From Aliamphritea spongicola (lineage in GTDB: Bacteria > Pseudomonadota > Gammaproteobacteria > Pseudomonadales > Balneatricaceae), in contig AP025283.1 of assembly GCA_024347235.1 (NCBI GenBank), forward strand, positions 1,674,001 to 1,738,000: a DNA stretch of 64,000 nucleotides. The letters are read 5' to 3'. Position numbers and translations under genes: made by a program. Each line of letters starts with the position of its first letter. Within the stretch, counting starts at the first letter, position 1. Shown in pieces: positions 9,642 to 31,700 of the stretch. The notes below the pieces were generated by a model that was given only the letters and a program-made list of their open reading frames with translations, was not told where the DNA came from and did no database searches.

Positions 9642-10093
9642 GGTTGTTGTTCTTTAGCCGGCCGTACTGCCGATCCTCGGGCCATTGTGACCGCCAGAAA
9701 AGGCATTAGTAGCAATAATAACAGTTCAGCCCGGATAATCCGGATAATTCGTCGGGGCACAGGAATTCTGCTGGTGTTTGCACGGCGATTTCGCAAGTAA
9801 AACCAGGTTGGAATTGTGGACAGAGTCGCAATTACCGCGAACAGCAGAAGTTTGGTGTGAAAGATAAAGTTACCGGAGTAAAAGGCTTCCGGTTTGCCGA
9901 CAATAAACCATAGCAGTAAACCGCTGACCAGCATGAGCATAGCGCCTGCACCGTAAATGCCGTCGATAACGGCAATTTTCCGCAGGGCGGCCGGGGTCAT
10001 GGTTTTACGTAGCAGCAGATGCTGACTGACCAGTGCCGCGGCCAGAATGATCAGGCCGGTGAAGTGCAGATATCTGACAAGAAGCTCTTCCAT
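9638..10093 (-). CDS. DUF2214 family membrane protein
   Basis: Intact 151-residue integral membrane protein with four predicted helices (FTGLIILAAALVSQHLLL, YGAGAMLMLVSGLLLWF, LLLFAVIATLSTIPTWFYL, AELLLLLLMPFLAVTMARG). The arrangement and the PTWFYLR region match DUF2214 proteins. Role unknown. Four-base overlap with the downstream DUF6151 gene shows an operon. Confidence 0.75.
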   Translation of the reverse strand: MEELLVRYLHFTGLIILAAALVSQHLLLRKTMTPAALRKIAVIDGIYGAGAMLMLVSGLLLWFIVGKPEAFYSGNFIFHTKLLLFAVIATLSTIPTWFYLRNRRANTSRIPVPRRIIRIIRAELLLLLLMPFLAVTMARGSAVRPAKEQQP

Positions 10094-10157
10094 TGCAGGG
10101 TCCTGTTGCCGGTATTAGCGGCTCAGTGTAGACCGAAATGGTCAGCTGGGTATAGCG

Positions 10158-12515
10158 TTAGTCCTGGTTTCTTTGCTGCTCTGGCCAGTGTGAAGCAATT
10201 TTCCGGCTTGCTTCAATGGCAGAATGTAACTGTTGAAGCAGTGTTGGTAGGTCCGGGATTTTGGCATCTGCCAGTTGTTGTTCGGTATGCCGTAAAAGTG
10301 TTCCGGCGGCACGAAAGCCCAGGGTGTCGCAGGCACCGGCCAGTTTGTGCAGAAGCTGTTCGGCGTTGCTCAGGTCGTTTTCAGTCAGGCTTTGGCGGAT
10401 AGCAGGCCAGAGTTCATCGCAGCTGTTAACAAATCCTGCCATGAGTTTTTGAACTTTCTCAGGGCCGAGCATTTCTTCATGCATGGATATCAGGCTGTTA
10501 TCCAGTACAGGAAGGGGATCAGCAAATTCCGGTGATTCAACAGGGTTAGACAGGTTGGCGCTGTCGTCTGCAGAGTGAGAGATTGCACTGAACAGTTGGT
10601 TTCTGTCGACCGGTTTGGCAATAACCGTGTCGATGCCCAGCGTCCGGTAGGTGTGCAGATCTTCCTGGCGGACGCTGGCTGTCAGAGCAATGATTTGTGT
10701 GCTCTGATGCCGGAATTCCGGGTTATTACGGATTAACTTGCTTATTTCCAGTCCGCTGCGGCCGGGAAGGTGCATATCCATCAGAATCAGGTCGAAGCTT
10801 TGTTGTTTGCAAAGTGTCAGTGCCTGCTCACCGTCACTGGCAATGCTGATCCGGTGATTAAATGGTGCGAGCAGGCCCAGAACGACGTCCTGATTAATCT
10901 GTACATCTTCTACCAGTAGTATATTGAGTTCAGGCTGACTACCAGGTGGCGCTGATATGTCACTTGTCAGCTCAGGGTTTGACGCCGTGAGGTGGCTGTC
11001 ACAAACAGGCAGCTTTACTTCCAGCCAGAAGCAGCTGCCCTGGCCGGCTTCACTTTGCAGGCCAATGTCAGCGTTAAGCTGCAAGGCCAGTTCTTTACAG
11101 ATGGCGAGCCCAAGGCCGGTACCGCCGAAACGCCGTGTAATGCTCTCGTCAGCCTGAGTAAAACGTTCAAATATTTTTTCCTGAAGGGGCTGTGGAATGC
11201 CAACGCCGGTATCACGGATACTGAAGCGAAGTGTGTGACTTTCGGCTGTAGCTGTTAGTTGCGATACTGTCAGTGTGATTTCACCTTCATGGGTAAACTT
11301 GATGGCATTCGCCAACAGGTTATTCAGTATTTGTCGCAGGCTACTGTGTGCAGCGAAATAAGCTGGTGCCAGGCTGGGAGGATAATGCAGTTCAATTTTC
11401 AGGCCTTTGTCCCTTGCGCCGGGTTCAAACAGACTGATCAGATTTTCCAGCATTGCTTGCAGGGCAAAGGGTTTTTGTTCCACCTGATGTGCACCTTCTA
11501 TCAGCCTGCCGTATTCCAGTACCTGATTAAAGGTTTCCAGAAGGGCGTCTGTTGCGTCATGGAGAACCTGTACCTGTTTATGCTGGCTGTTACTTAGCGG
11601 CGTGTTTTCAAGTAGCTGAATCATCCCCAGCATGCCGTTCATCGGGGTGCGAATTTCATGGCTGATGGTGGCCAGAAACCGGGTTTTGGCATCGTTAGCT
11701 TCTTCAGCGGCTTCTTTGGCGCGGCGCAGGCTTTCGGTTCGCTGTTCTACCATGGTTTGTAGCTGATCGCGGTTATAACGCAGCTCCTGTTGTTCCTGGT
11801 CCCGGCGCTGGCGGTCCTGCTGAATGGCCTGGCGCATGTCATTAAGGGCGCTGACCAACTGATCCAGTTCGTCCCGGTGCTGGGGCTTGTGCCGGTTCAG
11901 ACGCAGGCTGTCTTCCAGTTGTCCGGCACCGATGTCCCGGCTGTAGGTGGCCATGGCCTCCAGATGACGGGTGATCTGGCGGTGGAATATTATCAGGATG
12001 ACCAGCACGATAAGCAGTACCAGCAGTGTCTGGTTCAGCAAGATGGTGAACCCCTTAGCATAGATTCGGTTGTAGATCCCCTGAATATCAATGTGCACAT
12101 CTAACTGCCCGAGGTTTCTTTGCTGACCACTGGCGGTGGTGTGGATAAGTTCGAACCGTTGCATGTTTTTATGGGGCTCGGGCAGAGGGTCCTGTGCTGC
12201 TGTTGTCGGGAGGCGCAGCTCAAGTTCACTGATATCCGGCAGGTTTTCGATACCCTGAAGCTGGAGTTCTATTTGTGCCTGATCGATGTCCCAGAGGCTT
12301 TTTGCCAGACTGGCCAGATAACTGTCGCGGATAACTTCCAGCTGCTGGTTCAGCGCCCGGAATTCCCGCTGGTAGTCCAGTGTCAGCTGAACGGCAGTGG
12401 ACAGCAGGATAAATACAAAGCTGCAGGCGCTGACATACTGCATGATCCGGTAACCCAGAGGATGGTCCTTTGGATAACGAAGCAGTTGGCGGATCAGGTC
12501 AGGCAGGGCGTGCAT
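10158..12515 (-). CDS. TorS-like hybrid sensor histidine kinase, 785 residues
   Basis: Intact phosphorelay kinase. Domain order: TM1 (about residues 27-45), periplasmic sensor (46-155), TM2 (157-177), HAMP and coiled coil (178-275), HisKA with the phospho-accepting His286 (SHEIRTPMNGM), HATPase (N404, DTGVGI at 435-440, FGGTGLGL at 463-470), receiver (528-645, Asp580 in LILMDMHLPG) and a C-terminal Hpt domain with His723 (LHKLAGACD). This is the architecture of TorS. It lies 11 bases after a periplasmic binding protein gene and after a TorR-like regulator gene, so the three form one operon. The stimulus is presumably what the binding protein detects, and is not known. Confidence 0.9.
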   Translation of the reverse strand: MHALPDLIRQLLRYPKDHPLGYRIMQYVSACSFVFILLSTAVQLTLDYQREFRALNQQLEVIRDSYLASLAKSLWDIDQAQIELQLQGIENLPDISELELRLPTTAAQDPLPEPHKNMQRFELIHTTASGQQRNLGQLDVHIDIQGIYNRIYAKGFTILLNQTLLVLLIVLVILIIFHRQITRHLEAMATYSRDIGAGQLEDSLRLNRHKPQHRDELDQLVSALNDMRQAIQQDRQRRDQEQQELRYNRDQLQTMVEQRTESLRRAKEAAEEANDAKTRFLATISHEIRTPMNGMLGMIQLLENTPLSNSQHKQVQVLHDATDALLETFNQVLEYGRLIEGAHQVEQKPFALQAMLENLISLFEPGARDKGLKIELHYPPSLAPAYFAAHSSLRQILNNLLANAIKFTHEGEITLTVSQLTATAESHTLRFSIRDTGVGIPQPLQEKIFERFTQADESITRRFGGTGLGLAICKELALQLNADIGLQSEAGQGSCFWLEVKLPVCDSHLTASNPELTSDISAPPGSQPELNILLVEDVQINQDVVLGLLAPFNHRISIASDGEQALTLCKQQSFDLILMDMHLPGRSGLEISKLIRNNPEFRHQSTQIIALTASVRQEDLHTYRTLGIDTVIAKPVDRNQLFSAISHSADDSANLSNPVESPEFADPLPVLDNSLISMHEEMLGPEKVQKLMAGFVNSCDELWPAIRQSLTENDLSNAEQLLHKLAGACDTLGFRAAGTLLRHTEQQLADAKIPDLPTLLQQLHSAIEASRKIASHWPEQQRNQD

Positions 12516-12526
12516 GAGGCTATCTC

Positions 12527-13314
12527 TCAGAGAGGGTTGTGGAGGTATTCAAGGCTGTTACTGCGAATCATATTACGGATCCGGTTGCTTTTGTGCAGCT
12601 CCTGCAGGCGTTGATTAATATACGGCAGATGCTGGCTGAGGTTGCCTGCTTTACTCAGGGCCAGGTAATAATATTCACTGGCGATTTTTCCCGCAGGGGC
12701 ATGACGTGGTTCTCAAAGCCCAGTTTGCGTGTTTGCAGCATGTCGCTGCGCCAGCCGATAGGCATGTAATCAATACGCTGGTTAGCCAGTTTGCTGAAGT
12801 TTTGCTGATTTCTTGAAACGTATTCGATATGGCTGTTGGTTTGCAGAAAGGCATCAAAGCGGTCACCAAAACTGTCCCCAGTAAGAGGCCAACTGTTTTA
12901 CCCGGCAGGTCATCCATGCCGGTAATAGGGAGTCAGCATCACTGTTTACGAAAATCCGGACTTCATCGGCAATGATGTACTGTTCACTGAATGCCAGATA
13001 GCTTTCCCGGCTGGCGATACGGTAGGCGGCGACAACAATATCGATATTGCCCAGTCGTGCTTCTAAGAGGCAACGTTTCCAGTTGGTGTCTGCGATGAGC
13101 TGTACATCATAGCCAAGTTCCGCGAAAAGCTGCCGGGTGAGTTGCGGGGCCAGGCCTTTAACTGTCCTTCACTTACCCAGGATACCGGTGGGTAGAAGGG
13201 GTGTCCGCAGGCGGTGAGCACAGGCCGTGGGCTGTCTGCATTGGCCACTGTGGACAGTAACATGGAAGTCAGTAGACTGCAGGTCAGGAACAACCCGGTA
13301 AGAAAGCGGATCAC
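12527..13314 (-). CDS. Periplasmic solute-binding sensor protein, SBP_bac_3-like (frameshifted)
   Basis: Begins with a GTG that overlaps the regulator stop (GTGA). A signal peptide (FLTGLFLTCSLLTSMLLS, cleavage near ANA) precedes the amino-acid-binding-protein style sequence PVLTACGHPFYPPVSWVSEG. After correcting a missing G near 13160 the text reads GLAPQLTRQLFAELGYDV, RCLLEARLGNIDIVVAAYR, which is typical of family-3 binding proteins. Further shifts near 12935, 12885 and 12690 have to be mended; the end LEYLHNPL stops at 12527. About 263 residues. No transporter genes are nearby, so it probably feeds signal to the kinase, as TorT does for TorS. Confidence 0.7.
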
Positions 13315-14037
13315 GATAACTCGGCGGGTTTTGGGGTAAACAGGTAGCCGGCACCATGCACCGTAAGAATGGTTTTTGGTTGCGCGGGGTCATCTCCCAG
13401 TTTGCGTCGCAGGCGGCCGATCAGTACGTCGACAGTACGGTCACTGGGCACCCATTCCCGGTTACGGATTTGCTCCAGAATCTGTTCACGGCTCATGATC
13501 TGTCCGGCATGATTCATCAGTGTGCTAAGCAATTGGAATTCCCTTCAGTAAGCTGGGTGGTTTGTTGCTGGTCATCCACCAGTTGACGGCGGTCCAGATT
13601 CAGCTTCCAGCGCTCGAAGGTTTTAAAGCTGTTGGGCAGTGCATCAGTGGGTTTGGCTTCTGTACAGTGCCGTACCCTGCGTACCAGGTTTTTGGTTCGG
13701 GCGAGGATTTCCTTGGGTTAAAAGGTTTGGTGACGTATTCATCAGCGCCACATTCCAGACCAATTATACGGTCAACTTCGTCCTGTCGGCCTGTGACCAG
13801 AATAATACCTACTTCTGTATGAACGCGAAGTTCGCGGGTCAGGGTGAGGCCATCCTTTCCGGGCAGGCGTATATCCAGCAATACCACATCAATCGTGTGT
13901 TCGCTGAGGACTGATTCCGCCTGTTCAGCGGTTTCGGCTTCAAAGACCTGGAAGCCTTCGGTTTCAAAATAGCTTGTCAGGCATTCCCGGGTGACAGGTT
14001 CATCGTCGACCACCAGGATACGGGCGTCTGAGTTCAT
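13311..14037 (-). CDS. TorR-like OmpR-family response regulator (frameshifted)
   Basis: The receiver begins RILVVDDEPVTRECLTSYF, has the phospho-acceptor in VVLLDIRLPGKDG (Asp ~53), and TorR-like sequence VGIILVTGRQDEVDRIIGLE and GADEYVTKPF. The C-terminal winged helix reads ILEQIRNREWVPSDRTVDVL then IGRLRRKLGDDP. Two shifts (near 13718 and 13535) separate the halves; joined it is ~242 residues. First gene of a three-gene operon with the binding protein and the hybrid kinase. Divergent from speB, so speB is a candidate target. Confidence 0.85.
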
Positions 14038-14402
14038 AGGTTACTTCGTTTATGCGGCGCAATAATGGCCGGATTTGTTGTTATTTTATTTCAACAGTAG
14101 TGCCTGAAGCTTAGCTCAGGCAAGGCTTGTTTACATTTCATTTACAAGGTTTTACAAGTTTATACGAATGCTCTGCTTTGCCCGGCTGGTTGCAGGTTAA
14201 AAACGGCGTGCAGAAAAGGGCTTGAGTTTTAATTATAAACAGAATTATTATTCGGTTTGGTGCTGATTGTTCAGGTACCAAAGTCGCAAACATCACGACT
14301 CTAAACGTGGGACCGCCAACGGTGTTCTCCTGACGTCCGTAAGACAATCTATGATTCTTTTGCGAGAGCGCTTTTATATTCTTTATTAATAGGAGCTGCT
14401 CG
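14038..14402. promoter_or_regulatory. Divergent region between the TorR-like operon and speB
   Basis: About 365 bases without a gene. The left part is A+T-rich and should hold promoters for both directions. The right part (14265-14349) is a compact GC-richer element with nested complementarity, listed separately. AGGAG at 14391-14395 is the speB ribosome site. I did not find a clear set of TorR boxes. Confidence 0.5.
14265..14349 (+). ncRNA. Candidate structured 5' leader (possible riboswitch) upstream of speB
   Basis: Four mutually compatible helices are visible. P1 is GATTGT (14265-14270) with ACAATC (14344-14349). P2 is TCAGG (14271-14275) with CCTGA (14329-14333). P3 is AGTCG (14282-14286) with CGACT (14296-14300). 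P4 is ACCG (14312-14315) with CGGT (14320-14323), loop CCAA. P1 and P2 stack on the 5' side while ten bases bulge on the 3' side, giving a multibranch fold typical of ligand-binding leaders. It ends 53 bases before the speB start. It does not match a riboswitch class I can recall. Confidence 0.4.
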
Positions 14403-15319
14403 ATGACCAATTCTGAGCTTTTGGGTATTGATTCGAATACCTATGCAAATATTTTTACTTTTATGGGGTTGCCGCTGTCCAGAACGCTGGATGACGATAC
14501 TAATGTGTGCGTGATGGGAATTCCGTTCGATCTGGCAACGTCCGGACGATCGGGTACCCGTTTCGGGCCCAGTGGGTGCGTCAGGCATCTGCACAGTTAC
14601 GCTGGGAAGAGCGGCGCTGGCCCTGGCAGTTTGCCCTGAGTAAACGTTTGCAGGCGGTGGATTACGGGGATCTGGTATATGAAGACGGCAATGGCGACGA
14701 TATGCTGCAAACCGTTGAGTTGCACGCTGGCAGGGTGTTGGCAGCTGATAAGACCTTACTGAGTATTGGCGGTGATCATTTTGTTACTTTGCCGTTATTG
14801 CGGGCGCATGCTGCGAAGTATGGGAAGTTGGCGTTGCTGCATTTTGATGCTCATACGGATACCGAAGAGAGCGATGCGGCCTATAACCACGGCTCTATGT
14901 TTTACCATGCGCCGCTGGAAGGACTGATTGATCCGGTCGCCAGTGTTCAGGTAGGGATCCGAACGGATTTCAATCAGAAAAATCATGGCTTTACTGTACT
15001 GGATGCCAGCTGGGTCAATAACCACAGTGTTGAAGACTGTATTGCCAGGATCAGGCAGGTACTGGGTGACCGGCCGGTGTATCTGAGTTTTGATATTGAC
15101 TGCCTTGATCCAGCTTTTGCACCGGGTACAGGAACGCCGGTGAGTGGTGGCCTGACCTCAGACCGTGCCTTGCAGATTATCCGTGGTTTATCCGGGGTAA
15201 ATATTGTCGGTATGGATGTGGTAGAGGTGGCGCCGGCTTATGATCATGCTGAGATAACTTCATTAGCGGCAGCGACCCTGGCCCTTGAAATGCTTTATCT
15301 GAAAGCAAGCCAGATGTGA
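14403..15319 (+). CDS. speB: Agmatinase SpeB (one frameshift)
   Basis: Ureohydrolase that converts agmatine to putrescine and urea in the cytoplasm; two Mn ions. All metal-site motifs are present: [20 protein letters not shown], and [19 protein letters not shown]. Strong similarity to E. coli SpeB continues through [15 protein letters not shown] and [16 protein letters not shown] missing base near 14574 breaks the frame at [21 protein letters not shown]; corrected length ~305 residues, normal. AGGAG at 14391 supports the ATG at 14403. Transcribed alone, preceded by a structured leader and followed by a hairpin terminator; divergent from a TorR-like regulator. Confidence 0.93.
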
Positions 15320-15328
15320 ATTAGTATC

Positions 15329-15364
15329 GCGTGACGGGGTTTCCGTCACGCATTTCATATTTTA
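15329..15364 (+). terminator. Terminator-like hairpin after speB
   Basis: GCGTGACGG (15329-15337) pairs with CCGTCACGC (15343-15351) around a five-base loop, followed by atttcatatttt. The stem is perfect; the T tract is broken, so termination may be moderate. Confidence 0.65.
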
Positions 15365-15386
15365 GCTGAATGTATATAACAGACTG

Positions 15387-16160
15387 TTATGCAGCAGCCT
15401 GTTGAAGTTCAGTCAATTTTTCTTTACGCCTTCCAGCCCATTTCTGTTGTAAGCATTCAAAAGGCGGAACCAATGATGGCGATATCGGCGTGACCGCGCA
15501 GTGCCTGAATATCTGCCGCAGCAGAAATGCCAAAGCCGACACCCAGCGGTAAGTCTGTATGCTGGCTGATCCGGCGGAGATATTCCCCAATGCCTGATTT
15601 TTATCCGCAGACTCACCGGTAACGCCGGCGCGGCTAACACAGTAAAGCATACCGCTGGCTTGACTACAGATTGTCTGCAGACGGGATTCCTGGGTGTCCG
15701 GGGTAATTATCCATACGGGATCAATGCCGGTTTGTGTCAGCGGGGCAATCAGTTGCTGCTTTTCAATGGCGATATCCGGTACGATGATGCCGCTGATGCT
15801 TTGCTCCATCAGTGTGGCCAGTTGTGATGGGCCTGACTGCATCACAGGGTTCAGATAGCTCATCAGTAATACCCGGCTTTGTGGGAATTCACTGGCAAGC
15901 AGGCTGATATCCCGGATGCATTGCGTCAGTTGTGGCTTTTCTCCAAGTGCCTGATGGCAGGCATGGGTAATTGCCGGGCCGTCTGCTACCGGGTCTGAAA
16001 ACGGAAACTGTACTTCGAGAATTTCAACGCCGTTTTCAAGTAACAGACGCATCATTGCCAGGCTGTCAGGAATGGTTGGGTAACCATATATAACGTGGGT
16101 CATCAGTAGCAGCTGTTTGTCCGTCCGTTGCTGACGAATGTATTGGGTCAGGTCGCTCAT
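15387..16160 (-). CDS. trpA: Tryptophan synthase alpha chain (frameshifted)
   Basis: Splits indole-3-glycerol phosphate to indole and glyceraldehyde-3-phosphate. The catalytic glutamate and aspartate are in EILEVQFPFSDPVADGPAI, the flexible-loop region in CVSRAGVTGE, and the phosphate-binding end in GVGFGISAAADIQALRG and ADIAIIGSAFLNAYNR after correcting shifts near 15590, 15462 and 15422. About 258 residues, near the usual length. The strand before the active site (LLMTHVIYGYPTIPDSLAMM) departs from the usual PFVTLGDP pattern, so this is a divergent TrpA. Its ATG overlaps the trpB stop by one base (TGATG). Confidence 0.85.
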   Translation of the reverse strand: MSDLTQYIRQQRTDKQLLLMTHVIYGYPTIPDSLAMMRLLLENGVEILEVQFPFSDPVADGPAITHACHQALGEKPQLTQCIRDISLLASEFPQSRVLLMSYLNPVMQSGPSQLATLMEQSISGIIVPDIAIEKQQLIAPLTQTGIDPVWIITPDTQESRLQTICSQASGMLYCVSRAGVTGESADKNQALGNISAGSASIQTYRWVSALAFLLRQIFRHCAVTPISPSLVPPFECLQQKWAGRRKEKLTELQQAAA

Positions 16161-17386
16161 CAGCTGTTCTCCTGCGTCAGATAAGACTGGATAAAATCAT
16201 TGAAAGGTTCGTCCTGCAGGGCTTTGGCGATGTTAAAAATGTCTTTGTCACCCCGGCCGGAAACGTTGATAACGATTTTTGTGACGGATCCATCTCAGCC
16301 GCTTCCCGCAAACCAGCTGCGATAGCGTGAGATGATTCCAGCGCGGCGATGATGCCTTCATTACTGGCCAGTTGCTGGAAGGCCTGCATTACTTCAGTGT
16401 CTCTTGCCTGAGTCATACGGACTTTTCCCTGTTCTTCCAGATCGGCGAGAATCGGTGATACGCCAACGTAATCGAGCCCGGCAGAAATAGAGTGCGTTGG
16501 TTGTAGCTGTCCCTGTTCATCCTGCAGGAACTTGGTTGCGAATCCCTGGGCGATGCCAAAACGGGCCTGATCGGTATTAAACCGCATGGCGTGATCTCCC
16601 GGCGCATCGCTTCGCCCGCCGGCTTCAACACCGACCAGCTCAACGTCTTCATTCAGGAAGGGTAGGAAAATACCACAGGCATTGCTGCCACCGCCGACAC
16701 AGGCATAGATTTTATCCGGCAGTGTGCCGAACTGGTTTATGGCCTGTTCTTTACTTCCTCACCGATGACTGACTGAAAGCCGCTGACCATTTCCGGGTAA
16801 GGGGTGCAGCCACAGCTGGTGCCGATCAGGTAGTAGGTATCAGCGTAATTTGAAGACCAGTCTCGCAGGGCTTCGTCGAGTGCATCCTTCAGAGTGGCAG
16901 AGCCTTCTTTAACAGGTACGACGGTGGCGCCCAGCTGCTTCATCCAGAATACATTCGGATACTGACGTTCGATGTCATGGGCACCCATATAGATTGTGCA
17001 GTCCAGCCCCAGGCGTGCGGAAACTAATGCACTGGCGATGCCGTGTTGTCCGGCACCGGTTTCTGCGATAACCCTGCGCTTGCCCATGCGTTTGGCCAAT
17101 AGACCCTGGCCAATAACATTATTCATCTTGTGAGCGCCACTGTGGTTCAGATCTTCCCGCTTAAGGTATATCTGGGCGCCGCCGATGGCTGCCGATAAGC
17201 GGCTGCAGTGTGTCAGCGGTGTTGGCCTGCCTGAATAGTGCTGGAGCTGATCTTTGACTTCTGCAATGAAGGCCGGATCAGCCATTGCATCCTGGTAGGC
17301 TTTCAGCAGTTCCTGCTGGCTGTTAAAAAGAATCTCGGGAATATAACTTCCCCGTATTGACCGAATTGCCCGTCCTGATTCATCAT
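16160..17386 (-). CDS. trpB: Tryptophan synthase beta chain (frameshifted)
   Basis: PLP enzyme that condenses indole with serine. The PLP lysine is in [17 protein letters not shown], followed by [14 protein letters not shown], the phosphate-binding [15 protein letters not shown], and [18 protein letters not shown]. Shifts near 17343 (G run), 16747 and 16280 break it; mended length ~409 residues, standard. The N-terminus reads [19 protein letters not shown] once the G is restored. Start taken at 17386, the first of two adjacent ATGs. First gene of a trpBA pair with no other trp genes beside it; divergent from a TetR regulator. Confidence 0.92.
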
Positions 17387-17466
17387 TTTGTCGCTCTTTG
17401 TGGCTGGTGTGCCGGAGGGTGATAAGCTACGGCATACAGAAATTAATTATTTAACTAAACGGTATG

Positions 17467-17489
17467 GTAAAAATAATAAATATTTTTAC
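17467..17489. promoter_or_regulatory. Candidate TetR operator between trpB and the TetR gene
   Basis: GTAAAAATA (17467-17475) and TATTTTTAC (17481-17489) are perfect nine-base inverted repeats around five bases. It sits between the divergent trpB and TetR genes, where an autoregulating TetR dimer would bind. The sequence is very A+T-rich, so chance symmetry is possible. Confidence 0.4.
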
Positions 17490-17541
17490 ACCCGTCAATA
17501 GCCTGTGGACGTTTGTTGACCGGCTGATATGTGGAGTGTTT

Positions 17542-18091
17542 ATGGCCCGAGGTCGTCCGTCCAAAAACAGCAATTGCTGGATACCGCCCGCAGGGTGTTT
17601 GCTGAAAACGGTTATCAGGGGACATCGATTGACCTGATTGTTCAGGAGGCAGGGGTTTCAAGCCAACTGTGTATAACAACTTTCCGACTAAACAGGCGTT
17701 GTTAATCGCTTTGCTGGAACAGTTAACTGCCGAGCTGGAAATGACCGGCTCAGAGCTATTGACCAGTGATCTTGATACATCTGAAGCGGTTATCAGGGTT
17801 TATCTGAACATCGCAACGCAGCCGGAATATCTGATGATCTACCGGATTTTATGTGGTGAGCACTATAAGTTGGATGAGCTTACCCGCAATCAGGTTCTGT
17901 CATTTGATCAGGGGCTTCATCAGCGTTGTCTGGAAGCACTGCAGTCCGGTGGTATTACCCGCCCGGAATGGATTCTGATGTTTTGTCGGGATCAGATAAT
18001 CAGCCAGGCGCTTAAAGCACTTCCTGATGCTGAATTGCCGGGTGCCGGTGAGCTTTTAGTTCGTCTGGAAGGCCTGTTAAGCGAAGGGTAA
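17542..18091 (+). CDS. TetR-family transcriptional regulator (frameshifted)
   Basis: Restoring one A near 17565 and one near 17663 gives MARGRPSKKQQLLDTARRV, FAENGYQGTSIDLIVQEAG and VSKPTVYNNFPTKQALLIAL, a standard TetR helix-turn-helix. The rest (about residues 60-184) is the helical ligand-binding domain, with an AefR-like look in the C-terminus. Divergent from trpBA with a candidate palindromic operator between them. Ligand unknown. Confidence 0.85.
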
Positions 18092-18136
18092 ATGCTGACA
18101 GCTGTTATAAGTCAGCTTTATATAGCAGACATGTGA

Positions 18137-18346
18137 ATGATGCATCGGGCGATAATTGCTTTCCATACAGATGAAGAGCTGCACTGGGTGGCTGAGCTGG
18201 CGTGTGGGCATAATCAGCATGTACGCCACAATCCTCCATGGGTTAACCGTCCGTGGGTGCTGACCGTTGCCGGGCGGGACCAGTTTATCGGGCATTTACT
18301 GGCCTGTAAATGTGACCGGGGTGAGCCCCGGGATAATCCATACTGA
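18137..18346 (+). CDS. DUF3565 family small protein
   Basis: Intact 69-residue protein from ATG at 18137. The sequence WVAELACGHNQHVRHNPPW followed by VNRPWVLT is the DUF3565 signature, with conserved Cys and His residues that suggest metal binding. Small cytoplasmic protein of unknown function. It begins 45 bases after the TetR gene on the same strand. Confidence 0.8.
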   Translation: MMHRAIIAFHTDEELHWVAELACGHNQHVRHNPPWVNRPWVLTVAGRDQFIGHLLACKCDRGEPRDNPY

Positions 18347-18524
18347 TTGGGAGATAAGAAAGGGTATAAAATTAATTTATGCAGTTTTGAAAAATATCAT
18401 TGGCTGGAATCTTTGTTCTGCTGCCACAATGAACGGGCGACTTACGAGCAAATATAACAACAATAAGTAATGCCGGTTATTGAGGTGATGTCTGACCGGG
18501 GTTACATATACCAGGCATGATGAT

Positions 18525-20563
18525 ATGAGTCATAAAGATCCATTGCTCCAACCGTTTCAGCTGAAACACCTCACATTACGTAACCGTATTATTACTACCG
18601 CTCATGAACCTGCTTACCCGGAAGCAGGCATGCCGAAAGACCGTTACCGGGCTTATCATGTTGAACGTGCAAAGGCAGGTGTAGCGCTGACCATGACCGC
18701 CGGTTCTGCGACGGTATCTAAAGACAGTCCGCCAGTGTTTAACAACATTCTTGCCTATAAAGATGAGGTGGTTCCTTATCTGAAAGATCTGGTAGATGAG
18801 TGTCATGAGCATGGCACTGCAGTCATGATTCAGCTCACACACCTAGGGCGACGGACCGGCTGGTCGAAAGGTGACTGGCTACCGGTGGTGTCACCATCCC
18901 ATGAACGAGAGGCATCCCACCGTGCATTTCCTAAACAGATGGAAGATTGGGATATCGAGCGCATCATCAAAGACTTTGCCGATGCTGCAGAAAGAATGCA
19001 GGCCGCGGGGATGGATGGCATTGAGATCGAAGCTTATGGCCATTTACATGATCAGTTCTGGTCGCCTCTGACGAATACGCTGGAAGGCCCTTATGGCGGC
19101 AGTTTACAGAATCGCGTGCGCTTCACGCTGGATGTGCTTGAAGCCATCCGTGCCAGGGTAGGTACTGAGTTTATTGTCGGCGTGCGTTTCACTGCAGATC
19201 AGGCTCAGAAAGGTGGCTTTGGTTTTGAAGAAGGTGTTGAAATAGCCAAGTTACTGAAGGCATCCGGCCATATTGATTTTCTGAATGTTATCAGAGGGCA
19301 TATCGATACTGATCCCGGGCTGACGGATGTGATTCCGGTGATGGGTATGCGTAATTCTCCGCATTTGGATTTTGCCGGCGAATTCCGTTCATCAGTGGAT
19401 ATGCCGGTATTCCATGCTGCGAAGATTCCTGATGTAGCGACGGCTCGTCATGCGATAGCGGAAGGCAAGCTGGACATGGTGGGAATGACCCGTGCACATC
19501 TCGCTGATCCGCACATTGTCAGAAAGATCATTGAAGGAAGAGAAGAGCAGATCCGGCCCTGTGTTGGAGCGACTTATTGCCTTGACCGTATCTATCAGGC
19601 CGGGGATGCCTTCTGTATTCATAATGCGGCGACAGGCCGTGAACTGACAATGCCTCACGATATTCCTAAGGCAGATGTTAAGAAAAAGTGGTGATTGTAG
19701 GTGCGGGGCCTGCTGGCATGGAGGCTGCCCGGGTGGCAGGTGAGCGTGGCCATGAAGTTATTGTATTAGAAGCGGCAGCACAGGCCGGAGGGCAGCTGCT
19801 ACTGACGTCACAAAGCCCCCGTCGGCAGGAAATGATATCGATCATTGACTGGCGAATGGCTGAATGTGAAAGGCTTGGGGTTGAGTTTCGTTTCAATACC
19901 TGGGCTGAAGCCGCTGATGTGACCACTTTAAAACCGGATGCTGTGATTATTGCCACCGGAGGCTACCCACATACAGAAATTCTTGAGGCAGGAAATGAGC
20001 TGGTAGTATCTGCCTGGGATATTTTATCTGGCGATGTGAAGCCAAAAGGAAAGGTGCTGTTATTTGATGATGCAGGTGATCACGCCGCTATGCAGGCGGC
20101 GGAAGTGATCGCTGACAGCGGTGCAGAACTTGAAGTGATGACACCTGACCGGGCCTTTGCGCCGGAAGTGATGGCCATGAATCTGGTGCCGTATATGCGG
20201 GCAATGCAGCAGAAGGATGTGACATTTACGGTGACTTTCCGGTTGGAGAGTGTGCAGAAAGAAGGCGATGGGCTGGTGGCGCGCGTAGGCAGTGATTATG
20301 GCGGTGTTGAAAAGTACCGGCATGTGGATCAGGTGGTCATTAACCATGGTACCCGACCGCTGGATGACATCTACTTTGATCTGAAAGGTACTTCCAGTAA
20401 CGCCGGTGAAGTGGTTTATGAAGATCTGATCGTCGGAACACCGCAAACCAAAGTTAATAATCCTGACGGAGCATTCCAGTTGTTCAGAATTGGTGATGCT
20501 GTGTCATCCAGAAATACTCACGCGGCGATCTACGATGCGCTGCGTCTGGTGAAAGATATCTAG
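18525..20563 (+). CDS. DgcA-like NADH:flavin oxidoreductase / demethylase (one frameshift)
   Basis: Two-part flavoprotein of the trimethylamine dehydrogenase / dienoyl-CoA reductase family, ~679 residues. Residues 1-375 form an Old Yellow Enzyme FMN barrel (PFQLKHLTLRNRIITTAHEP, MIQLTHLGRR, EIEAYGHLHDQFWSPLTN). Next come [4Fe-4S] cysteines (RPCVGATYCLDRIYQAGD, then FCIHNAA). A C-terminal FAD/NAD domain (VVIVGAGPAGMEAARVAGE) follows a one-base shift near 19690. Closest remembered relatives are dimethylglycine demethylase component DgcA and N-methylproline or stachydrine demethylases, so demethylation of a methylated amine is likely; substrate not determined. It lies 74 bases upstream of dddP on the same strand, probably as an operon. 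Confidence 0.8.
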
Positions 20564-22724: not shown

Positions 22725-25700
22725 ATGGATAAGACCAATAACGCAGTTGTAAATGTTGTTAGTGTTGAAGGTGATGTAGTTGTATTGGATACGGCAGGTA
22801 GTATGCGGGCCGTTCAGATTAATGATCAGCTACAGCCAGGTGAAAAGCTTATTACTTCAGGGGACAGTGAAGCTGTCGTTAGCCTTGGTGGTGAGACTGT
22901 AGAGCAATTACCATCGGACAGCGTTGCGCTGGTTGTGATTGATCCGGAAACCGGTGAAGTCTATCTGAATATCCAAACCCTGTTAGAGCAGAGCCAGGAT
23001 GAAGAATCTGAACTGTCGGAGATTGAACAGTTAATTCTGGCGGGTGCCGACCCTACTGAGTTGTTGGAAGAAACCGCTGCCGGTGGTGAGGGGGCGGTAC
23101 TGCCCCTGCGAATGATGGTTTTACCGGCCTCGGAGAAGTATTGCGTACAGGCGAGTCAGTAATTGCTGAAGCTGGTTACGATACAGGTACCGACGATGAT
23201 GGCCGGGATGGCGGCGATGACCAGCAGCCAGCGCCTGCCGAACTGGTTGTTCCATTAGTTACTCCAGTTGTAAATATTGTTGCTACAGATCCTTCTGCTA
23301 TAGAAGGTGAAGTCGGTGATAGTGTTATTTTCACTGTTAGTCGTGATTTTGATAACGGTGCAAACAGCACTGTTATTTTTACTGTGAGTGGTGGAGATGC
23401 TTTTACTTCTCAAGATATAAGTCAGATCGTATTTGCTGATGCAACCGGCACGACTGTAATAAGTACACAGCAGGAAATTTCCAGCTTTTTGAGTGCTGGA
23501 CAGACTCTCACGTTAGGAGGAAACGCCGCAGCTACGGTCACTTTTATTCCGGCTGACGATAGTTTATTCGAGGGAGCTGAAGTATTTAATGCCGGTTTGG
23601 TTGCCGGTAATAATGTTACTTTGGGTAGCGCTTCAGCATCCGGTGAGTTTCAGGATGAGGATGGTAATAATCCTGATAATCCCAAGGATGAGGTCATCGT
23701 CTCCCTGACCGGGCCGAGCGATGTGGTCGAAGGTGAAACCACCACTGACTACACCGTCAGCCTGAGCGAAGCGGTGCCGGCGGGTAAATCGGTTACCGTG
23801 GCGCTGACGTACAGCTACACCACGGCCTCCGGTACGGACATCACTGAAGTGGCCGATGTGACCATCACCGGTCCGGCGAGCAGTGCGACCTTCAACATTG
23901 CCACCATCGATGATGCGCTGGCCGAAGGGGCGGAAGACTTCACCGTCAGCCTGGGAACCATCACAGACACTAATGACGCGTTCGAAGCGATCGTGGCGGG
24001 CACCAACAACAGTGTCGAAACCACCATCACGGACCAGACCGGCAGTGACAACCCACCGGGTACAGAAGACACCGTCATCGTCTCCTGACCGGGCCGAGCG
24101 ATGTGGTCGAAGGTGAAACCACCACTGACTACACCGTCAGCCTGAGCGAAGCGGTGCCGGCGGGTAAATCGGTTACCGTGGCGCTGACGTACAGCTACAC
24201 CACGGCCTCCGGTACGGACATCACTGAAGTGGCCGATGTGACCATCACCGGTCCGGCGAGCAGTGCGACCTTCAACATTGCCACCATCGATGATGCGCTG
24301 GCCGAAGGGGCGGAAGACTTCACCGTCAGCCTGGGAACCATCACAGACACCAATGACGCGTTCGAAGCGATCGTGGCGGGCACCAACAACAGTGTCGAAA
24401 CCACCATCACGGACCAGACCGGCAGTGACAACCCACCGGGTACAGAAGACACCGTCATCGTCTCCTGACTGGCCCGAGCGATGTGGTTGAAGGTGAAACC
24501 ACCACCGACTACACCGTCAGCCTGAGCGAAGCGGTGCCGGCGGGTAAATCGGTCACCGTGGCGCTGACGTACAGCTACACCACGGCCTCCGGTACGGACA
24601 TCACTGAAGTGGCCGATGTGACCATCACCGGTCCGGCGAGCAGTGCGACCTTCAACATTGCCACCATCGATGATGCGCTGGCTGAAGGGGCGGAAGACTT
24701 CACCGTCAGCCTGGGAACCATCACAGACACCAATGACGCGTTCGAAGCGATCGTGGCGGGCACCAACAACAGTGTTGAAACCACCATCACGGACCAGACC
24801 GGCAGTGACAACCCACCGGGTACAGAAGACACCGTCATCGTCTCCCTGACTGGCCCGAGCGATGTGGTCGAAGGTGAAACCACCACCGACTACACCGTCA
24901 GCCTGAGCGAAGCGGTGCCGGCGGGTAAATCGGTCACTGTGGCGCTGACGTACAGCTACACCACGGCCTCCGGCGCGGACATCACTGAAGTGGCCGATGT
25001 GACCATCACCGGTCCGGCGAGCAGTGCGACCTTCAACATTGCCACCATCGATGATGCGCTGGCTGAAGGGGCGGAAGACTTCACCGTCAGCCTGGGAACC
25101 ATCACAGACACCAATGACGCGTTCGAAGCGATCGTGGCGGGCACCAACAACAGTGTCGAAACCACCATCACGGACCAGACCGGCAGCGACAACCCACCGG
25201 GTACAGAAGACACCGTCATCGTCTCCTGACTGGCCCGAGTGATGTGGTCGAAGGTGAAACCACCACCGACTACACCGTCAGCCTGAGCGAAGCGGTGCCG
25301 GCGGGTAAATCGGTCACTGTGGCGCTGACGTACAGCTACACCACGGCCTCCGGTACGGACATCACTGAAGTGGCCGATGTGACCATCACCGGTCCGGCGA
25401 GCAGTGCGACCTTCAACATTGCCACCATCGATGATGCGCTGGCCGAAGGGGCGGAAGACTTCACCGTCAGCCTGGGAACCATCACAGACACTAATGACGC
25501 GTTCGAAGCGATCGTGGCGGGCACCAACAACAGTGTCGAAACCACCATCACGGACCAGACCGGCAGTGACAACCCACCGGGTACAGAAGACACCGTCATC
25601 GTCTCCTGACCGGGCCGAGCGATGTGGTCGAAGGTGAAACCACCACTGACTACACCGTCAGCCTGAGCGAAGCGGTGCCGGCGGGTAAATCGGTTACCGT

Positions 25701-28700
25701 GGCGCTGACGTACAGCTACACCACGGCCTCCGGTACGGACATCACTGAAGTGGCCGATGTGACCATCACCGGTCCGGCGAGCAGTGCGACCTTCAACATT
25801 GCCACCATCGATGATGCGCTGGCCGAAGGGGCGGAAGACTTCACCGTCAGCCTGGGAACCATCACAGACACCAATGACGCGTTCGAAGCGATCGTGGCGG
25901 GCACCAACAACAGTGTCGAAACCACCATCACGGACCAGACCGGCAGTGACAACCCACCGGGTACAGAAGACACCGTCATCGTCTCCTGACTGGCCCGAGC
26001 GATGTGGTTGAAGGTGAAACCACCACCGACTACACCGTCAGCCTGAGCGACGCGGTGCCGGCGGGTAAATCGGTCACCGTGGCGCTGACGTACAGCTACA
26101 CCACGGCCTCCGGTACGGACATCACTGAAGTGGCCGATGTGACCATCACCGGTCCGGCGAGCAGTGCGACCTTCAACATTGCCACCATCGATGATGCGCT
26201 GGCCGAAGGGGCGGAAGACTTCACCGTCAGCCTGGGAACCATCACAGACACCAATGACGCGTTCGAAGCGATTGTGGCGGGCACCAACAACAGTGTCGAA
26301 ACCACCATCACGGACCAGACCGGCAGCGACAACCCACCGGGCACAGAAGACACGGTATATGTGCGGTTAACGCAGAACGTCGACAGCATTGGTGAAGACG
26401 GTGGTCAGGTAACCTATACAGTTACCCTGGTTGATGAAAATGATCAGCCTATTACAGTACCGGCCGGCGAAACAGTTACAGTTGGTCTGGGTTATACAGG
26501 TAGCGCGGATAGCAGTGAATACACAGGTGAGCAGGCCAGCGTGACGTTTACTGCAGGACAAAGTCAGCAGCAATTTGTAGTTACCAGTGTTGATGATGCT
26601 GTATCAGAGCCGAATGAAAATATCATTGTAGATATTACCTCTATCACAGACAGCGGCGCGTTTGAGAACGTGGAAGAGCATGCTGATAATCAGGTAACAA
26701 CACTGGTCATTGATGATGACGGGACTCCTCAGTTAAGTATTAATGACGTCAGCGTGAATGAAGACGATGGTGTTGCCCGCTTTACGGTAACCCTGTCCCC
26801 AGTATCAGCTTCAACTGTAACGGTTGATTTTGCTACCGCCAGCGGTACAGCGACTCAGTCTGCTGACTTCACTGGTGTGTCTGGTACCTTAACTTTTAAC
26901 GCAGGAGATAATACTGCGTTTATTGATGTGCCTATTACGGATGATGTATTAGCTGAAGGCATTGAAAACTTTGTTGTAAACCTGACCAATGCTGTTAACG
27001 CTGACATTGCTGATAATCAGGGGCAAGGTAGCATTGTTGATGAAACAACGCCGTCTGGTGATGACACCGTCATCGTCTCCCTGACTGGCCCGAGCGATGT
27101 GGTCGAAGGTGAAACCACCACCGACTACACCGTCAGCCTGAGCGAAGCGGTGCCGGCGGGTAAATCGGTCACCGTGGCGCTGACGTACAGCTACACCACG
27201 GCCTCCGGTACGGACATCACTGAAGTGGCCGATGTGACCATCACCGGTCCGGCGAGCAGTGCGACCTTCAACATTGCCACCATCGATGATGCGCTGGCCG
27301 AAGGGGCGGAAGACTTCACCGTCAGCCTGGGAACCATCACAGACACCAATGACGCGTTCGAAGCGATCGTGGCGGGCACCAACAACAGTGTCGAAACCAC
27401 CATCACGGACCAGACCGGCAGTGACAACCCACCGGGTACAGAAGACACCGTCATCGTCTCCCTGACTGGCCCGAGCGATGTGGTCGAAGGTGAAACCACC
27501 ACCGACTACACCGTCAGCCTGAGCGAAGCGGTGCCGGCGGGTAAATCGGTCACTGTGGCGCTGACGTACAGCTACACCACGGCCTCCGGCACGGACATCA
27601 CTGAAGTGGCCGATGTGACCATCACCGGTCCGGCGAGCAGTGCGACCTTCAACATTGCCACCATCGATGATGCGCTGGCCGAAGGGGCGGAAGACTTCAC
27701 CGTCAGCCTGGGAACCATCACAGACACCAATGACGCGTTCGAAGCGATTGTGGCGGGCACCAACAACAGTGTCGAAACCACCATCACGGACCAGACCGGC
27801 AGTGACAACCCACCGGGTACAGAAGACACCGTCATCGTCTCCCTGACTGGCCCGAGCGATGTGGTCGAAGGTGAAACCACCACCGACTACACCGTCAGCC
27901 TGAGCGAAGCGGTGCCGGCGGGTAAATCGGTCACTGTGGCGCTGACGTACAGCTACACCACGGCCTCCGGCGCGGACATCACTGAAGTGGCCGATGTGAC
28001 CATCACCGGTCCGGCGAGCAGTGCGACCTTCAACATTGCCACCATCGATGATGCGCTGGCTGAAGGGGCGGAAGACTTCACCGTCAGCCTGGGAACCATC
28101 ACAGACACCAATGACGCGTTCGAAGCGATCGTGGCGGGCACCAACAACAGTGTCGAAACCACCATCACGGACCAGACCGGCAGCGACAACCCACCGGGTA
28201 CAGAAGACACCGTCATCGTCTCCTGACTGGCCCGAGTGATGTGGTCGAAGGTGAAACCACCACCGACTACACCGTCAGCCTGAGCGAAGCGGTGCCGGCG
28301 GGTAAATCGGTCACTGTGGCGCTGACGTACAGCTACACCACGGCCTCCGGTACGGACATCACTGAAGTGGCCGATGTGACCATCACCGGTCCGGCGAGCA
28401 GTGCGACCTTCAACATTGCCACCATCGATGATGCGCTGGCCGAAGGGGCGGAAGACTTCACCGTCAGCCTGGGAACCATCACAGACACTAATGACGCGTT
28501 CGAAGCGATCGTGGCGGGCACCAACAACAGTGTCGAAACCACCATCACGGACCAGACCGGCAGTGACAACCCACCGGGTACAGAAGACACCGTCATCGTC
28601 TCCTGACTGGCCCGAGTGATGTGGTCGAAGGTGAAACCACCACCGACTACACCGTCAGCCTGAGCGAAGCGGTGCCGGCGGGTAAATCGGTCACTGTGGC

Positions 28701-31700
28701 GCTGACGTACAGCTACACCACGGCCTCCGGTACGGACATCACTGAAGTGGCCGATGTGACCATCACCGGTCCGGCGAGCAGTGCGACCTTCAACATTGCC
28801 ACCATCGATGATGCGCTGGCCGAAGGGGCGGAAGACTTCACCGTCAGCCTGGGAACCATCACAGACACCAATGACGCGTTCGAAGCGATCGTGGCGGGCA
28901 CCAACAACAGTGTCGAAACCACCATCACGGACCAGACCGGCAGTGACAACCCACCGGGTACAGAAGACACCGTCATCGTCTCCTGACTGGCCCGAGCGAT
29001 GTGGTCGAAGGTGAAACCACCACCGACTACACCGTCAGCCTGAGCGAAGCGGTGCCGGCGGGTAAATCGGTCACCGTGGCGCTGACGTACAGCTACACCA
29101 CGGCCTCCGGCACGGACATCACTGAAGTGGCCGATGTGACCATCACCGGTCCGGCGAGCAGTGCGACCTTCAACATTGCCACCATCGATGATGCGCTGGC
29201 CGAAGGGGCGGAAGACTTCACCGTCAGCCTGGGAACCATCACAGACACCAATGACGCGTTCGAAGCGATTGTGGCGGGCACCAACAACAGTGTCGAAACC
29301 ACCATCACGGACCAGACCGGCAGCGACAACCCACCGGGCACAGAAGACACGGTATATGTGCGGTTAACGCAGAACGTCGACAGCATTGGTGAAGACGGTG
29401 GTCAGGTAACCTATACAGTTACCCTGGTTGATGAAAATGATCAGCCTATTACAGTACCGGCCGGCGAAACAGTTACAGTTGGTCTGGGTTATACAGGTAG
29501 CGCGGATAGCAGTGAATACACAGGTGAGCAGGCCAGCGTGACGTTTACTGCAGGACAAAGTCAGCAGCAATTTGTAGTTACCAGTGTTGATGATGCTGTA
29601 TCAGAGCCGAATGAAAATATCATTGTAGATATTACCTCTATCACAGACAGCGGCGCGTTTGAGAACGTGGAAGAGCATGCTGATAATCAGGTAACAACAC
29701 TGGTCATTGATGATGACGGGACTCCTCAGTTAAGTATTAATGACGTCAGCGTGAATGAAGACGATGGTGTTGCCCGCTTTACGGTAACCCTGTCCCCAGT
29801 ATCAGCTTCAACTGTAACGGTTGATTTTGCTACCGCCAGCGGTACAGCGACTCAGTCTGCTGACTTCACTGGTGTGTCTGGTACCTTAACTTTTAACGCA
29901 GGAGATAATACTGCGTTTATTGATGTGCCTATTACGGATGATGTATTAGCTGAAGGCATTGAAAACTTTGTTGTAAACCTGACCAATGCTGTTAACGCTG
30001 ACATTGCTGATAATCAGGGGCAAGGTAGCATTGTTGATGAAACAACGCCGTCTGGTGATGACACCGTCATCGTCTCCCTGACTGGCCCGAGCGATGTGGT
30101 CGAAGGTGAAACCACCACCGACTACACCGTCAGCCTGAGCGAAGCGGTGCCGGCGGGTAAATCGGTCACCGTGGCGCTGACGTACAGCTACACCACGGCC
30201 TCCGGTACGGACATCACTGAAGTGGCCGATGTGACCATCACCGGTCCGGCGAGCAGTGCGACCTTCAACATTGCCACCATCGATGATGCGCTGGCCGAAG
30301 GGGCGGAAGACTTCACCGTCAGCCTGGGAACCATCACAGACACCAATGACGCGTTCGAAGCGATCGTGGCGGGCACCAACAACAGTGTCGAAACCACCAT
30401 CACGGACCAGACCGGCAGTGACAACCCACCGGGTACAGAAGACACCGTCATCGTCTCCTGACCGGGCCGAGCGATGTGGTCGAAGGTGAAACCACCACCG
30501 ACTACACCGTCAGCCTGAGCGACGCGGTGCCGGCGGGTAAATCGGTCACTGTGGCGCTGACGTACAGCTACACCACGGCCTCCGGCACGGACATCACTGA
30601 AGTGGCCGATGTGACCATCACCGGTCCGGCGAGCAGTGCGACCTTCAACATTGCCACCATCGATGATGCGCTGGCTGAAGGGGCGGAAGACTTCACCGTC
30701 AGCCTGGGAACCATCACAGACACCAATGACGCGTTCGAAGCGATCGTGGCGGGCACCAACAACAGTGTCGAAACCACCATCACGGACCAGACCGGCAGCG
30801 ACAACCCACCGGGTACAGAAGACACCGTCATCGTCTCCCTGACTGGCCCGAGTGATGTGGTCGAAGGTGAAACCACCACCGACTACACCGTCAGCCTGAG
30901 CGAAGCGGTGCCGGCGGGTAAATCGGTCACTGTGGCGCTGACGTACAGCTACACCACGGCCTCCGGTACGGACATCACTGAAGTGGCCGATGTGACCATC
31001 ACCGGTCCGGCGAGCAGTGCGACCTTCAACATTGCCACCATCGATGATGCGCTGGCCGAAGGGGCGGAAGACTTCACCGTCAGCCTGGGAACCATCACAG
31101 ACACTAATGACGCGTTCGAAGCGATCGTGGCGGGCACCAACAACAGTGTCGAAACCACCATCACGGACCAGACCGGCAGTGACAACCCACCGGGTACAGA
31201 AGACACCGTCATCGTCTCCCTGACCGGGCCGAGCGATGTGGTCGAAGGTGAAACCACCACTGACTACACCGTCAGCCTGAGCGAAGCGGTGCCGGCGGGT
31301 AAATCGGTTACCGTGGCGCTGACGTACAGCTACACCACGGCCTCCGGTACGGACATCACTGAAGTGGCCGATGTGACCATCACCGGTCCGGCGAGCAGTG
31401 CGACCTTCAACATTGCCACCATCGATGATGCGCTGGCCGAAGGGGCGGAAGACTTCACCGTCAGCCTGGGAACCATCACAGACACCAATGACGCGTTCGA
31501 AGCGATCGTGGCGGGCACCAACAACAGTGTCGAAACCACCATCACGGACCAGACCGGCAGTGACAACCCACCGGGTACAGAAGACACCGTCATCGTCTCC
31601 CTGACTGGCCCGAGCGATGTGGTTGAAGGTGAAACCACCACCGACTACACCGTCAGCCTGAGCGAAGCGGTGCCGGCGGGTAAATCGGTCACCGTGGCGC

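Follow-up and report, generated by a model that had tools for sequence, protein, structure and literature searches.

A candidate hairpin-rich 5' leader of the agmatinase gene speB in Aliamphritea spongicola

Results

The window (the whole stretch of A. spongicola DNA that we analysed, 64,000 nucleotides) carries a response regulator gene (13600-14037), speB, and further downstream trpA and trpB (15387-16160 and 16177-17285). An earlier note on this DNA had placed a proposed structured RNA directly before an agmatinase gene, and the downstream gene is indeed an agmatinase, scoring 383.9 bits against PRK02190 (cut-off 302). The response regulator gene and speB look split by frame breaks, as do trpA and trpB, and the genes that are split here have intact copies in G005, G006 or G016, three other genomes of the genus; speB of G006 is intact and encodes 305 residues. 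The data suggest many single-base sequencing errors in the window's own genome (G000), and such errors are also suspected because its listed completeness is 78%. A long repetitive protein region, which we take to be of a Calx-beta-like repeat type, occupies about 23190-42373 of the window in several frames and gives no DNA-level alignment to G006, which has one reading frame of about 25 kb there.

Two promoter-like sites were returned by a consensus scan of 14030-14450, against a shuffle mean of 0.9, and one of them (Table 1) lies in a stretch, 14215-14255, of which 40 of the 41 bases are identical in G006. Transcription would start from it near 14257-14259, upstream of the RNA element that the earlier note had drawn at 14265-14349. 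No terminator-like site was found from 14256 to 14402, so that control, if there is any, is more likely to be translational than transcriptional.

Table 1. Features of the speB leader region and the speA leaders (window positions unless a genome or locus is given)
Feature	Position	Strand	Basis	Remarks
Promoter-like site	14222..14251	+	consensus scan, 9/12	TTGAGT-18-TATTAT
H1, predicted 5' hairpin	14256..14282	+	folding, window and G006	10 pairs in each genome's best fold
H2, predicted hairpin	14283..14299	+		GUCG/CGAC, 9-nt loop CAAACAUCA; core of drawn P3
H3, predicted hairpin	14305..14336	+		ACGU/ACGU stem, GGGA/UCUC(C) continuation, variable top
H4, predicted hairpin	14338..14364	+		7+4 pairs; encloses possible upstream start codon
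H5, predicted hairpin	14366..14401	+		12 pairs; 3' arm carries speB Shine-Dalgarno AGGAG (14391-14395)
Possible upstream reading frame MILLRERFYILY*	14351..14389	+	read from sequence, candidate only	12 codons
speB, agmatinase	14403..15319	+	NCBIfam PRK02190, TIGR01230	frame broken by one missing base in window
speA leader, G000	G000:C1:1652456-1652541	-		outside window
speA leader locus	L157:3450-3535	-		
speA leader locus	L158:3085-3169	-		
speA leader locus	L159:3451-3536	-		
speA leader locus	L160:257-342	-		

The element drawn in the earlier note consisted of four nested helices, P1 to P4, with two outer helices around two inner hairpins and junctions described as possible ligand pockets. 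All strands lie where they were drawn and the 20 pairs can form, but the stability is at chance level: the 85-nt segment has a folding energy of -18.1 kcal/mol, and dinucleotide-preserving shuffles average -17.7 (z -0.13; 88 of 200 shuffles were equally good), and a second set of 500 shuffles gave z -0.02. G006 keeps 2 of the 6 pairs of P1, 4 of 5 in P2, 5 of 5 in P3 and 2 of 4 in P4; for P1 and P2 the 5' strands are altered and the 3' strands are not. The pair probability of P1 and P2 in the whole-leader ensemble is 0.00 in both genomes, and that of P4 drops from 0.19-0.32 in the window to 0.00 in G006. P3 survives as a 5-bp hairpin that is invariant between the two. Both outer helices and one of the inner hairpins fail in the relative and in the ensemble alike, which leaves the drawn architecture and its pocket-like junctions unsupported. 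A hand-drawn fold with plausible junctions can thus be refuted by one diverged relative.

A different fold, a row of five local hairpins (H1 to H5, Table 1), appears to fit the window and G006 better. The predicted row is common to both genomes, which differ inside H3 and towards the top of H5. H2 (z -3.10; pair probability 0.67-0.78) is invariant in the two leaders and its helix is intact also in a decayed copy in G016; lacking covariation, it is neither proved nor refuted. The outer 4 pairs of H3 have probabilities of 0.70-0.83 in both genomes, the inner register is unlike between them, and positions 14305-14338 on their own fold at shuffle level (z 0.17). H4 (z -3.01; probability 0.67-0.87 in both genomes) shows no covariation, and its sole change in G006 sits in the 3-nt loop. 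H5 folds with z -3.38 in the window and z -2.10 in G006, where one additional G in the 3' arm goes along with a rearranged upper part of the best fold. In the predicted ensembles of the two genomes tested the speB Shine-Dalgarno sequence is paired (mean unpaired 0.01 in the window, 0.16 in G006), and the AUG is largely free (unpaired 0.79 and 0.71). Between the window and G006 there are 0 substitutions at paired positions of H2-H5, the one inserted G apart, and so these four hairpins carry no covariation evidence. Judged by these predictions, the hairpin over the speB ribosome site, which is absent from the earlier note, appears better supported than the helices drawn there.

H1, at the 5' end, uses the 5' strands of the drawn P1 and P2. 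It folds at -10.9 in the window and at -15.7 in G006 although 11 of its 27 bases differ. In a fixed register of 11 pairs, 5 are invariant, 4 have one-sided changes and still pair, and 2 are broken in the window; the broken ones are the top pairs, which come out as broken because the window pairs them via a bulge. Neither here nor elsewhere in the two intact leaders did we find a pair with a two-sided change in fixed register. When the 11 differing sites of H1 were changed at random, the G006 energy was reached in a fraction of 0.0004 of 5000 trials and the window energy in a fraction of 0.0106. The decayed copy in G016 also has a hairpin at this site (-7.8). We scanned the aligned DNA for gap-free 27-base stretches that carry at least 9 changes and reach a folding energy of -9 or lower on the same strand of each genome. 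From 244 intergenic windows diverged to this degree 2 places came through, H1 being one, and 298 coding windows (one start in three) also gave 2. The second intergenic place (joined G006 stretch, 64494) has 10 changes in 27 bases and folds strongly in both genomes; it is perhaps a terminator. Computation shows the predicted H1 pairing to be maintained while its sequence diverges. Covariation, as far as two intact leaders and one decayed copy can display it, speaks against the drawn helices but favours this different 5' hairpin.

The conservation of the leader has to be read against that of its surroundings, for which we used 80 kb of G006 around the locus; 55% of it could be aligned to the window. 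Within the alignment, intergenic DNA has an identity of 85.5% between the two, against 68.6% at third codon positions. As controls we took 147-nt regions upstream of automatically called gene starts, dropping those that were more than 25% coding or incompletely aligned. Among the resulting 21 upstream regions the speB leader ranks 13th in identity (0.878, or 87.8%), and its longest identical run, 41, is ordinary. At the fourfold sites of speB 66 of 141 differ between the window and G006, but the contrast with the leader is not special because nearby intergenic DNA is similarly conserved. By sequence comparison the conservation of the leader alone is thus unremarkable, and strong constraint as proof of RNA function was ruled out by the 21-region control. 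Raw leader conservation is a poor guide between these two genomes, whose ordinary intergenic DNA is about as conserved. Folding gave a different ranking: with z -3.01 in G006 and -2.56 in the window, the leader ranks 2nd of the 21 upstream regions by the sum. Among 30 background windows of 150 nt (10000-19000; mean z -0.45), one scores z -3.98 and surpasses the leader, which stands at -2.73 in this comparison. Counting the speB leader, 3 of the 21 regions end in 38 nt with a folding energy of -10 or lower in each genome.

These controls bear on the reading that the locus holds an ordinary promoter and untranslated leader, whose hairpins stabilise the mRNA or are incidental and form no dedicated switch. 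Its conservation would then mirror how slowly intergenic DNA changes in general from one genome to the other, as the 13th rank in identity and the mean intergenic identity of 0.855 would lead one to expect; H3 at chance level and equally strong pre-start hairpins in 2 of the 20 other regions fit as well. It accounts less readily for the 2nd rank in fold z and for an H1 pairing that survives 11 changes. We consider this reading plausible, if short of an even chance.

A single base separates the stop of the possible upstream frame MILLRERFYILY from the speB Shine-Dalgarno sequence, and the frame is identical in G006. A ribosome finishing it at 14389 would open H5 and permit reading of speB, and the enclosure of its start codon by H4 would be in keeping with such coupling. 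No good Shine-Dalgarno sequence was seen before 14351, however, and runs of identity this long are also seen elsewhere in the intergenic DNA of the two genomes. The frame is moreover absent from G016, which itself has no working gene. Coupling of this kind is, in our estimate, unlikely.

Among 17 genomes of the genus, a DNA match to 14180-14480 was found in three: the window's own, G006 (89% identity) and, as a short piece, G016. G006 is the only intact relative among the genomes compared, and its intact agmatinase gene sits behind the same leader. G016 holds a decayed agmatinase locus (L003 1521-1844) in which a promoter part, a leader part and the 3' end of the gene are joined by a deletion; it lies between the response regulator gene and trpA, as in the window. 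What survives is the promoter's -10 part, a hairpin and the part with GTCGCGAACATCACGAC; the leader is otherwise lost, as is most of the gene. In G005 the response regulator gene and trpA are neighbours, with 295 bp and no speB between them. Leader and gene occur together, both being present in G000 and G006, both as remnants in G016, and neither at this locus in G005.

A covariance model of H1-H4, built from the two intact leaders, was run on samples of family, order and class that overlap, with stricter filters in searches over more than 40 genomes. Its 2 matches in the 116 family genomes were G000 and G006, and the remnant in G016 went unreported there; beyond G000 it found one coding-frame match each in 369 class genomes (G651, 23.6 bits) and 293 order genomes (G170, 24.7 bits). 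The former is antisense within a frame and the latter lies within a frame, which we take from their translations to be scpA-like and gpsA-like, respectively; both were put down to chance. For 90 of the 134 locus sources, mostly SpeB-like loci of other genera, the window, L002 and L003 (the G016 remnant, 16.6 bits, accepted by position) count as matches. Four other weak locus matches, at or below 16.2 bits, were treated as chance; that in L051 (16.2 bits) is located some 1.8 kb beyond where the SpeB match ends. The model gave no match at the remaining SpeB-like genes of the genus, of which G006 has two. A DNA search with L002:1555-1705 against the 293 order genomes had as its best match beyond G000 one of 25 bases (E 0.0025); 284 of the 293 gave some match because E was set at 10. 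Plasmids and phages gave no leader match at E 1e-5.

That no known riboswitch class is matched, as the earlier note held, was borne out: there were zero Rfam matches at the gathering score across the window. A search of 14150-14430 with E up to 10 returned four sub-threshold matches only, the best being SAM_alpha at 14164-14235 (E 0.76, 14 of 36 bits), outside the leader, and a search of L002 and L157-L160 with E up to 1 returned nothing usable. These searches weigh against the idea of a metabolite riboswitch for agmatine, putrescine, arginine or another ligand, with H2-H4 as aptamer and H5 as translational platform. In its favour, a polyamine gene lies downstream, the 9-nt loop and a UCUAA linker between predicted helices are invariant, and H5 would bury the Shine-Dalgarno sequence. 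Yet two sequences cannot separate invariant bases from general conservation, Rfam has no match, the two other SpeB-like genes of G006 have none either, and the family, order and class samples hold none at another gene, the two coding-frame matches apart. A clear two-state alternative is also lacking: when H5 was barred, the best alternative paired the Shine-Dalgarno bases with TTCTCC at 14325-14330, and with the site hidden in that fold too, the predictions offer no simple switch between an on and an off structure. We judge such a riboswitch rather improbable.

The biosynthetic arginine decarboxylase gene speA passes its family cut-off in 3 of the 17 genus genomes (G005, G006 and G016), and G000 has it in two pieces, which makes this type of SpeA a trait of a subgroup. 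It lies tens of kilobases from speB, or from the speB remnant in the case of G016, in G000, G006 and G016. A leader precedes speA (Table 1) and is, by raw comparison, strongly conserved across G000, G005, G006 and G016. Searched with a model of this leader, the 116 family genomes gave matches in these 4, and the 369 class genomes in G000 only. In the helices proposed for it, changes are one-sided, two cells are unpaired and no two-sided change occurs, and a possible three-codon frame, ATG CCA/CCT GCT TGA, stands just after GGAG. The speA and speB leader sequences are unrelated. A motif common to both was considered and rejected, the longest shared word, TTCAGGTA, not being retained in the speB leader of G006. 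Were there a narrowly distributed translational riboswitch or polyamine-responsive agmatinase leader in part of one genus, together with an unrelated conserved speA leader in the same clade, then RNA elements of separate evolutionary origin would control the route from arginine to putrescine in both of its steps; we think this quite improbable.

Discussion

That speB has a structured leader, as the earlier note proposed, is probable, but the fold drawn for it is wrong. Our preferred reading, to which we give an even chance, is of a structured 5' leader, restricted to a lineage, whose concealment of the ribosome site limits the translation of speB. On this account positions 14256-14402 would be the 5' leader of the speB mRNA, transcribed from near 14258 and folded into a row of local hairpins. 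H1 would cap and stabilise the 5' end, and H5 would reduce speB translation in the resting state. H5 might be opened by translation of the short frame (14351-14389), by a protein, or by a small molecule acting on H2-H4. In its favour count the H1 pairing that outlasts sequence divergence, the 2nd rank in fold score, the Shine-Dalgarno sequence paired in both genomes, the unsubstituted paired bases of H2-H5, the lack of a terminator-like site and the joint occurrence of leader and gene; the ordinary level of conservation, the similar pre-start hairpins of two other regions and the one better-folding background window count against it. The fit of this account is partly circular because the structure was chosen to suit both sequences. 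Against it also stand the extra G in H5 of G006 and a start codon that is mostly unpaired, and also the small basis of two intact sequences without a two-sided pair change in fixed register. If the leader is real, a lineage-restricted member would be added to the RNA elements of polyamine synthesis, with the concrete prediction that H5 hides the ribosome site.

In the literature searched on agmatinase, speB or speA with riboswitches, leader peptides or structured RNAs, no title or opening of an abstract describes the element. Several known RNAs invite comparison. The spermidine riboswitch is a rare SAM-I variant with the four-stem SAM-I architecture, which precedes polyamine genes including speB; 13 examples come from Gram-positive genera and metagenomes, and the ldcC example acts by terminator control (PMC10853860). 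The speB leader differs from it in having neither a SAM-I match (E up to 10) nor a terminator-like site. The ykkC, mini-ykkC and ykkC-III RNAs are guanidine riboswitches. ykkC and ykkC-III RNAs are located before genes annotated as speB (PMC2864571). Unlike these, the leader studied here has no Rfam match, and its SpeB is filed as agmatinase PRK02190. The speF leader of Salmonella is a polyamine-gene leader reported to be controlled at several levels (PMC6386406); it belongs to a different gene, and the candidate upstream frame of the speB leader has 12 codons. A further likeness is to the general kind of translational 5' leaders that hide a ribosome site in a hairpin. The speB leader departs from these in that it rests on two intact sequences and its trigger is only proposed, and it resembles them in having a predicted hairpin that pairs the Shine-Dalgarno sequence before the start codon, with no terminator-like site.
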